Shown here piece by piece: positions 40,046-41,554 of a stretch of 64,000 bases of DNA. The translations under genes and the position numbers were made by a program. The notes under the pieces were generated by a model that saw only the letters and a list, made by a program, of their open reading frames with translations, was not told the origin of the DNA and did not search any database. Location: the NCBI GenBank assembly GCA_035573435.1, contig DATMZR010000006.1:124001-188000 (forward strand), read 5' to 3'. How positions within the stretch are numbered: the first letter of the stretch is position 1; each line of letters begins with the position of its first letter. Origin of the DNA: Solirubrobacterales bacterium (GTDB taxonomy: Bacteria; Actinomycetota; Thermoleophilia; Solirubrobacterales; 70-9).

Positions 40046-40101
40046 CGCTTTCGGCACGACCTGCGAACCACTGGCGACGGCTCGTCGGCGAACATACGTT
40101 C

Positions 40102-40510
40102 GTGATCAATCCCAACCACCGCGGCGCGATCGCCGAGACAGCGATAGCGCTCGAAGCGATCAAGGAGGGAGTCGAGGTCTACAAACCGCTCTCAGAGCAT
40201 GCTCGAGCCGATCTGGTCTTCGGAATTCAGGAGCGGCTCTTTCGCGTCCAGTGCAAAGTCGGCAGTCAGAAAGGGCGATGTCGTGATCGTCAGGTTGGTC
40301 AGCAACTGGCATTCGCCGCACGGCTACGTCCGCACCCGCTACTCGGCCGACGAGATCGATCCGGTGGCCGTTTATTGCCACGAGCTCGATCACTGCTATC
40401 TCCTACCCATCGAGCTCGTGGCCGGCCAGACCGGCGTGCAGCTGCGGCTCGCGCCGCCCAGGAATGGCCAGAGGGCGGCGCTAAACTGGGCGGCCGATCA
40501 CCAGCTTTCT
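40102..40510 (+). pseudogene. PD-(D/E)XK endonuclease of the I-Ssp6803I type, frameshifted, abutting tRNA-Ala
   Basis: From GTG 40102 the first ~57 codons (N-P-N-H-R-G-A-I-A-E near the start; A-D-L-V-F, then R-V-Q-C-K with Asp37, Gln50 and Lys52 as metal/catalytic residues) match PDDEXK_5 (PF11645). The rest (K-G-D-V-V-I-V-R-L through Y-C-H-E-L-D-H-C-Y-L-L-P and N-G-Q-R-A-A-L-N-W-A-A-D) is in the next frame. Dropping one base from AAAGGG at 40270-40275 restores a full-length protein. The second frame has no stop and runs straight into the tRNA gene at 40511. I-Ssp6803I is the group I intron-encoded endonuclease of a cyanobacterial tRNA gene. Confidence 0.78.
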
Positions 40511-40583
40511 GGGGCTGTAGCTCAGCTGGGAGAGCGTCGGAGTGGCACTCCGAAGGCCACGGGTTCGAGTCCCGTCAGCTCCA
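40511..40583 (+). tRNA. tRNA-Ala (anticodon GGC)
   Basis: A 73-base cloverleaf: acceptor GGGGCTG pairs with CAGCTCC (one G-U), D arm GCTC/GAGC, anticodon stem TCGGA/TCCGA with loop GTGGCAC giving anticodon GGC, T arm ACGGG/CCCGT with loop TTCGAGT, and discriminator A at 40583. CCA is not encoded. It is intronless. Confidence 0.97.
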
Positions 40584-40600
40584 CTCCCTCCGAGCCCGCG

Positions 40601-40735
40601 TCACATACCGTCGGCGCCCACAAGTTCCGCAACCACTTCGGTTGTTACATGGAGCGCACAGTGGCCGGCGAGGAGTTCCTCGTCACTCGCCGCGGCAAGC
40701 CCTGCGTCCGCCTCGCCCGCGCAACCCAAGCTACG
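40601..40735 (+). pseudogene. Phd/YefM-type antitoxin remnant
   Basis: In the same frame that leaves the tRNA gene, H-T-V-G-A-H-K-F-R-N-H-F-G then G-E-E-F-L-V-T-R-R-G-K-P-C-V-R-L matches the prevent-host-death (Phd/YefM) antitoxin fold almost to its end. There is no start codon in front and no stop after it, and no toxin gene is present. It is best read as a decayed type II antitoxin left just downstream of a tRNA. Confidence 0.6.
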
Positions 40736-40752
40736 CATCCCCGAAGGCGACG

Positions 40753-40758
40753 TATCAT
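40753..40758 (+). promoter_or_regulatory. -10 box (TATCAT) of the ABC ATPase gene
   Basis: TATCAT, 7 bases before the GTG at 40766; it supports that start over the longer frame that extends back through the tRNA. Confidence 0.55.
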
Positions 40759-40765
40759 CGACGGC

Positions 40766-41554
40766 GTGACGGGCGACCGACAGTCCGCCCCCGCGATCGA
40801 GCTCGTGGACGTGGTCAAGAACTTCGGTTCCAAGCGCGTCCTCGACGGAGTCGACCTCGCCGTGCCCGCCGGCGCGATCACCGTGCTCCTCGGCCCCTCC
40901 GGGGCGGGAAAGACCGTCACGATCAAGCACATCGTCGGCCTCATCACGCCCACCGCGGGGAGTGTGGTCATCGAAGGCGAGGACCTCGTCGACCTCTCCG
41001 AGACGCAGCTGTACGAGCTTCGGCGAGGGATGAGCGTCGTCCTCCAGGGCACCCTGCCGTTCACCTGCGGCCTCTTCTACTCGCTCAACGTGTACGAGAA
41101 CGTCGCCTTCGCGCTGCGCGCGCGGACCAACTGGTCACCCGAACGGATCGACGAGGTCACCCTCGCTCACCTCGGAATGGTGGGGCTGCGTGACCGCGCC
41201 CACGACATGCCCTCCCAACTGTCGGCGGGGATGTGCAAGCGAACAGCACTGGCGCGCGCGCTCGCGCTTGAGTCGCGCATCGTCATCATCGACGACTTCG
41301 ACAGCGGCATCGACGGCGTTCGCCTCGCCCTCCTCTGCGAGCTGATCCGCGACCTGCAGCGCAGCAGCGACACGACCTTCCTCGTCTCGACCCACGACAT
41401 GACGGCGGCGCGCAAGCTCGCCGATCACGTGGCCGTCATCCGGCAGGGCCGCATCGTCGCCAGCGGCGACGCCGAGTCACTGCTCGGCGCGGACAAGCCC
41501 CTGGTGCACCAGCTCCTCTCCGGCGAGCTGGCCGCCCTGCCGGTGTCCGCCTAG
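40766..41554 (+). CDS. ABC transporter ATP-binding protein, MlaF-like
   Basis: A 262-residue ATPase. Walker A G-P-S-G-A-G-K-T is at 43-50, signature L-S-A-G-M at 152-156, Walker B R-I-V-I-I-D-D at 171-177, and H-loop S-T-H-D at 208-211. The catalytic glutamate after Walker B is Asp177 and the following P-T is F-D. It is most similar to the MlaF/Ttg2A (Mce-linked lipid transport) branch, but no permease (MlaE/YrbE) or Mce gene is near. It overlaps the convergent DUF385 gene by 4 bases. Confidence 0.88.
   Translation: MTGDRQSAPAIELVDVVKNFGSKRVLDGVDLAVPAGAITVLLGPSGAGKTVTIKHIVGLITPTAGSVVIEGEDLVDLSETQLYELRRGMSVVLQGTLPFTCGLFYSLNVYENVAFALRARTNWSPERIDEVTLAHLGMVGLRDRAHDMPSQLSAGMCKRTALARALALESRIVIIDDFDSGIDGVRLALLCELIRDLQRSSDTTFLVSTHDMTAARKLADHVAVIRQGRIVASGDAESLLGADKPLVHQLLSGELAALPVSA

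Follow-up and report, generated by a model that had tools for sequence, protein, structure and literature searches.

A frameshifted, intronless I-Ssp6803I-family nuclease gene that runs into tRNA-Ala(GGC) is probably a decayed homing endonuclease specialised on tRNA genes

The window, a stretch of 64,000 nucleotides from a Solirubrobacterales genome, contains a frameshifted member of the PF11645 (PDDEXK_5) nuclease family, the family of I-Ssp6803I, which has no group I intron and abuts a tRNA gene that is followed in frame by a Phd/YefM-like segment. The features of the locus are as follows, in window coordinates.

40089–40102, no strand assigned: predicted LexA-type SOS box CGAACATACGTTCG, a palindrome directly 5′ of the nuclease start codon (sequence match)
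40095–40100, + strand: −10-like hexamer TACGTT within the SOS box, a possible nuclease promoter at an unusually short distance from the start codon (sequence and relatives)
40102–40272, + strand: first part of the PF11645 nuclease, from a GTG start to the frameshift (Pfam, genome search)
40270–40275, + strand: single +1 frameshift that breaks the window copy (frames compared with relatives)
40271–40510, + strand: second part of the PF11645 nuclease, flush at the tRNA and in tRNA frame 1
40482–40487, + strand: predicted −10 box for the tRNA, TAAACT, which falls within the nuclease frame and is kept in G770 and G361 (alignment)
40511–40584, + strand: intronless tRNA-Ala(GGC), read in frame as a linker (ARAGORN, Rfam)
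40537–40553, + strand: anticodon arm TCGGAGTGGCACTCCGA, its stem a perfect palindrome; the suspected target region of the nuclease, in a variant allele (carriers compared with non-carriers)
40604–40714, + strand: Phd/YefM-like DNA-binding domain in the frame of nuclease and tRNA (Pfam, 1.8e-6)
40766–41554, + strand: ABC transporter ATPase of the host flank, entered by the Phd frame without a stop in the window copy

An earlier, sequence-only reading had described a PDDEXK_5 frame with one +1 frameshift at 40270–40275 that runs flush into tRNA-Ala(GGC) at 40511, and both Pfam and ARAGORN confirm this arrangement. PF11645 is matched in two frames, with 40108–40272 covering profile positions 2–56 and 40271–40507 covering positions 58–137; each half exceeds the Pfam cut-off, and the nuclease joined across the shift reaches 112.5 bits, where the cut-off is 26.1. 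The frame after the shift was likewise correctly said to stay open: neither the stretch ahead of the tRNA nor the tRNA itself contains a stop, and the frame passes through the Phd/YefM-like segment and into the ABC ATPase gene, ending at 41554. The ABC ATPase itself (40766–41554) has the signature LSAGM, not LSGGM. A tRNA pattern search found a single copy of tRNA-Ala(GGC) in the window's genome, and a genome search found no further PF11645 match there. Rfam detected no group I intron in the window, which led us to reject a hidden intron at the locus; the open reading frame does not lie within a group I intron in the manner of intron-encoded homing endonucleases.

Many relatives of the window gene are broken, including all three nuclease copies found in the window's genus (the window copy, G770 and G361). 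Intact relatives exist as well, among them L011 and L022. Because the break points differ among the broken copies, we regard the frameshift in the window as local decay, and for the same reason a programmed frameshift was rejected.

The assignment to the I-Ssp6803I family rests on sequence and on predicted structure. A profile built from the relatives matches the I-Ssp6803I structure 2OST at 1.7e-17, and the nuclease part of the predicted structure matches it at 3.9e-11. A D and a Q-C-K (Q-x-K) motif, which we take to be the catalytic residues of 2OST, are conserved in the relatives and in the window and align with that structure. Within the window's class, PF11645 members occur in 106 of 399 genomes. 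Searches returned two weak matches among phages and none among plasmids, and a single-protein search of genome contigs returned two records. The literature within our reach, to which most subscription journals do not belong, contained no account of free-standing PF11645 genes at tRNAs, nor of a tRNA within such a reading frame.

We measured linkage to tRNA genes over most PF11645 loci of the class together with further loci from the whole order, counting 143 distinct loci with enough flanking sequence and using a threshold of ≤300 nt; random 400-bp intervals within the same loci (n = 756) served as the control. A tRNA gene lies within this distance of 141 of the 143 loci, compared with 6 of the 756 control intervals, and the two loci beyond 300 nt are the second copy of a tandem and a fragment. 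The sequence-only reading had held that homologs scattered without tRNA linkage would speak against its idea; the homologs are instead tied to tRNA genes, and we consider the linkage, together with the anatomy of the locus, very nearly certain. The linked tRNAs are led by Ala(GGC), with 82 cases, followed by Tyr(GTA), Thr(TGT), Ala(TGC), Arg(CCG) and Ser(TGA), in several orientations. Nearly every PF11645 match in a sample from the rest of the phylum, taken as stretches of about 3 kb, also has a tRNA in its stretch (Arg(TCT), Ala(GGC), Thr(CGT), Tyr(GTA) or Thr(TGT)). Some lie at a greater distance, L191–L193 several hundred bases from tRNA-Pro and L195 further away, and the sole locus without a tRNA in its stretch, L170, adjoins a group I intron.

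A tree of 89 nucleases sorts by tRNA target, with well-supported Ala(GGC) and Ala(TGC) groups and further Thr and Arg groups. In genome G369 a nuclease is found at each of three tRNAs, and every one of these nucleases clusters by its own target. The tree also shows that nuclease types cluster largely by host family. Tandem nuclease pairs occur at tRNA-Ala(TGC) in G258 (L083) and G246 (L085). Two genomes have two tRNA-Ala(GGC) genes, each with its own broken nuclease (L135 and L138 in G165; L255 and L257 in G191), and the anticodon stems of the G165 copies are mismatched. By analogy with what has been reported for phage SegB, the doubled tRNA-Ala(GGC) of G165 and G191 may possibly have arisen by nuclease-driven tRNA duplication.

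The junction was compared at 77 loci in which the nuclease ends ≤40 nt 5′ of tRNA-Ala(GGC). None of the 77 has a stop codon before the tRNA, and the frames either pass through the tRNA or stop inside it; homologs that end well before the tRNA, the other outcome named against the idea, are thus not what these junctions show. All 42 flush genes (0–9 nt) enter in tRNA frame 1, and 41 of them read through the tRNA. Among the 35 genes at 10–40 nt, 18 read through, 14 stop at the TAG of tRNA positions 8–10 and 3 stop elsewhere in the tRNA. One genus has a third arrangement, in which the nuclease has its own stop and is followed by a spacer of 80–92 nt.

A TANNNT hexamer lies 15–33 nt before the tRNA, within the nuclease frame, in nearly all of 65 carrier loci, and the same hexamer is present in the short tRNA leader of nuclease-free genomes. 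In flush genes it is encoded in a conserved nuclease motif, and in genes at 10–40 nt in a short extra tail. In G361, from the window's genus, a large internal deletion has removed the middle of the nuclease, and the end with the −10 box is kept. We infer from this that the −10 box of the tRNA promoter sits inside the nuclease gene. At L104, scored as nuclease-free, the tRNA-Ala(GGC) leader resembles the 3′ end of a nuclease gene and is perhaps a relic that holds the promoter.

The same tRNA also exists in related genomes without the nuclease. In genus g10, where the flanks are colinear, we compared carriers (G369, G368 and G220) with non-carriers such as G286, G262 and G194. Upstream homology breaks off about 480–510 nt ahead of the tRNA in carriers but about 20–40 nt ahead of it in most non-carriers, so that carriers have about 475 bp inserted directly 5′ of the tRNA. 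On the 3′ side, G369 and G368 have a further stretch of about 140 bp immediately after the tRNA, and this extra sequence is the Phd-like segment. The segment was found only at carrier loci: when 77 tRNA loci were searched for it, all clear matches belonged to known carriers. The Phd-like domain is inserted together with the nuclease and conserved in its frame. The nuclease gene is free-standing, patchily present within genera and matched by clean empty sites.

Of the 38 flush nuclease genes at tRNA-Ala(GGC), 32 have the box GAAC-N4-GTTC no more than 75 nt ahead of them, as do 8 of the 20 at tRNA-Tyr, compared with 0 of 746 control windows. The window's genome has seven other LexA palindromes; no recognisable SOS gene lies beside those inspected, and lexA itself was therefore taken as the test. 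The same box precedes all 11 lexA genes located in the 12 genomes tested, so that by sequence match these nuclease genes carry the putative operator found at lexA of the same group, the mark of the SOS (LexA) regulon. The best reading is that the nuclease of the window's group is SOS-controlled through a putative LexA site; in the window, the box overlaps the presumed start codon of the nuclease. Many nucleases of family f7 have no GAAC-N4-GTTC and instead a conserved upstream GTCCG-N10-TANNNT (for example, L009, L014 and L053), which we take to resemble the PafBC/RecA-NDp DNA-damage promoter of actinobacteria.

Carriers and non-carriers also differ in the anticodon arm, which is the part of the tRNA that I-Ssp6803I recognises. 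In family f7, the stem TCTGGC/GCCAGA is found in 29 of the 49 tRNA-Ala(GGC) genes that lack a nuclease and in 4 of the 38 that have an intact or decayed one (Fisher, 2.4e-6; weaker by within-genus permutation, p = 0.013), an association that is confounded by relatedness, which was controlled only in part, and that uses a carrier classification made partly by hand. The 38 carriers have 26 different anticodon stems, compared with about 11 expected, and a single resistant anticodon allele was rejected because the stems are so many; some carriers keep the common stem. In genus g29, a changed 32–38 pair is present in all six carriers of the genus's own nuclease type (one of them partial) and in 2 of 14 non-carriers, and the usual pair is found with a broken copy (G318) and with a copy of a different type (G387). 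The unusual stems of carriers suggest a target-resistant allele. As an association, the variant arms fit a nuclease that would target the anticodon arm and carriers that would be protected from it.

The segment downstream of the tRNA scores 28.1 bits in the window, just below Pfam's 29.8, and among 14 relatives 12 match the Phd domain in Pfam and 13 in NCBIfam. The window's clade (n = 17, support 95) is the Phd clade, and one member, L051, has no Phd domain. In each of the 21 loci whose 3′ part is free of deletions, the nuclease frame is the Phd frame; the distance from the tRNA start to the Phd segment ranges from 90 to 111 nt and is divisible by three throughout. A tree of 16 members implies at least 9 changes in linker length and at least 4 gains or losses of an extra D-loop base, with the frame kept. 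Changes in the Phd segment favour the third codon position (0.33/0.30/0.53). In a structure model of one fused protein, the nuclease and Phd parts fold with good confidence and the centre of the linker with poor confidence, and the Phd part matches the N-terminal domains of VapB46 and Phd. We consider it likely that the full product is a fusion protein of the nuclease, about 25 residues from the tRNA gene and then the Phd-like domain. With slightly less assurance, we favour the view that an essential tRNA gene is nested on the sense strand of a protein-coding gene, where it would yield a mature tRNA and would also be translated into the nuclease–Phd linker. RNase P should cut the transcripts at the tRNA 5′ end and would therefore limit the yield of fusion protein.

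The alternative is that the nuclease and the Phd-like domain are separate genes, with a tRNA processed normally between them and a shared frame that is merely ancestral. The Phd-bearing loci do form a single clade; at a few of them an ATG or GTG follows the tRNA, and at some a possible start lies inside it. However, there is no ATG, GTG or TTG between tRNA and Phd in most loci, several have none anywhere from the tRNA start to the Phd segment, and the frame has survived in 21 of 21 loci despite all the changes in linker and D-loop. We therefore think two separate genes rather unlikely and retain the fusion protein as the preferred product.

We propose the following homing cycle. DNA damage would lead to cleavage of LexA, and the nuclease would be made. 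It would then cut the tRNA gene on incoming DNA or on a chromosome that lacks the nuclease, probably at the palindromic anticodon arm, and the break would be repaired from the nuclease-bearing copy, so that nuclease, tRNA and any 3′ part would be inherited together. Carriers would escape cutting because the anticodon arm of their own tRNA is unlike the target. An insert between the host promoter and the tRNA would be tolerated because the 3′ end of the nuclease supplies a replacement −10 box, and loss of the whole insert would consequently shut off an essential tRNA. The unit of the window's clade would have been extended past the tRNA, with the frame passing through to the Phd-like DNA-binding domain.

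The strongest competitor to this cycle is a gene that no longer homes and has been domesticated by the host, for example as a damage-induced defence nuclease against invading DNA with tRNA genes, inherited with the tRNA. SOS control would suit such a role, as would the clustering of nuclease types largely by host family, and phages and integrative elements often carry tRNA genes. Yet presence within genera is patchy and the empty sites are clean, many copies are broken, a member is found in only 106 of the 399 genomes, and the tree is sorted by target. All of these are typical of the gain–loss cycle of a homing endonuclease, and we judge domestication unlikely. Far less probable still is site-specific integration, in which the gene would mark the end of an integrative element with a tRNA attachment site: tRNA genes are classic attachment sites, but the inserts measure merely about 475 bp and about 140 bp, which leaves no room for an integrase, and they flank both sides of one tRNA. 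Moreover, the junction falls at the 5′ end of the tRNA, and the loci use several different tRNAs in several orientations. An integrative element was rejected because the inserts are too small. Frames through tRNA genes are often open and mis-annotated as proteins, and one could suppose a chance neighbourhood combined with the known lack of stops in one tRNA frame; against the linkage of 141 of 143 loci compared with 6 of 756 controls, the several different tRNAs involved and a frame conserved as far as a folded Phd domain, the chance of this is negligible.

Taken together, these data favour, with a probability of about 0.68 that includes the proposed mechanism, the reading that the window gene is the decayed remnant of an intronless homing endonuclease, one that belongs to the I-Ssp6803I (PF11645) family and is specialised on tRNA genes. 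The homing mechanism taken by itself we hold to be somewhat favoured. The sequence-only reading had raised a free-standing, intronless homing endonuclease that uses the tRNA locus and borrows the tRNA gene as its 3′ end; the linkage of 141 of 143 loci and the absence of stops at 77 of 77 junctions support it, and the enzyme would cut the tRNA gene. The embedded tRNA promoter, the SOS box, the Phd-like domain that is kept in frame and inserted with the nuclease, and the changed anticodon arms go beyond what that reading had seen. If true, this shows how a selfish gene that lacks a self-splicing intron can persist at the gene of an essential RNA: it carries the promoter of that RNA and, in one clade, also reads through it. 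Homing would be tied to the SOS response in bacterial chromosomes, and many natural PD-(D/E)XK meganucleases with predictable tRNA targets would become available. It would also explain the odd tRNA-containing open reading frames in this bacterial group, and it poses the testable question of how one transcript serves as both mRNA and tRNA precursor.

Among the closest known systems is I-Ssp6803I (PMC1995217, PDB 2OST), a PD-(D/E)XK homing endonuclease from the group I intron in Synechocystis tRNA-fMet. The genes described here share with it the domain, the conserved D and Q-x-K residues and the association with a tRNA gene, but they have no intron, abut the tRNA instead of interrupting it, occupy other tRNAs and carry an SOS box, and the window's clade adds the Phd-like domain. 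In their free-standing way of life they resemble SegB and SegG of phage T4, which are intronless homing endonucleases of the GIY-YIG type; segB sits in a tRNA cluster and its product cuts in the tRNA region (PMC2988022, PMC13096335). The homing of SegB in a tRNA region is one parallel. Another is segG, which carries in its coding region the promoter of the essential downstream gene 32, an arrangement argued to favour retention (PMC2988022). Unlike these phage enzymes, the nucleases here are PD-(D/E)XK proteins of bacterial chromosomes, at single tRNA genes and with a frame that runs into the tRNA. The 3′ segment, finally, is like the N-terminal domain of Phd/YefM antitoxins (PF02604, TIGR01552; VapB46 and Phd structures) in sequence and predicted fold, whereas at most loci it differs from them in having no start codon of its own and in lying in the nuclease frame through the tRNA.
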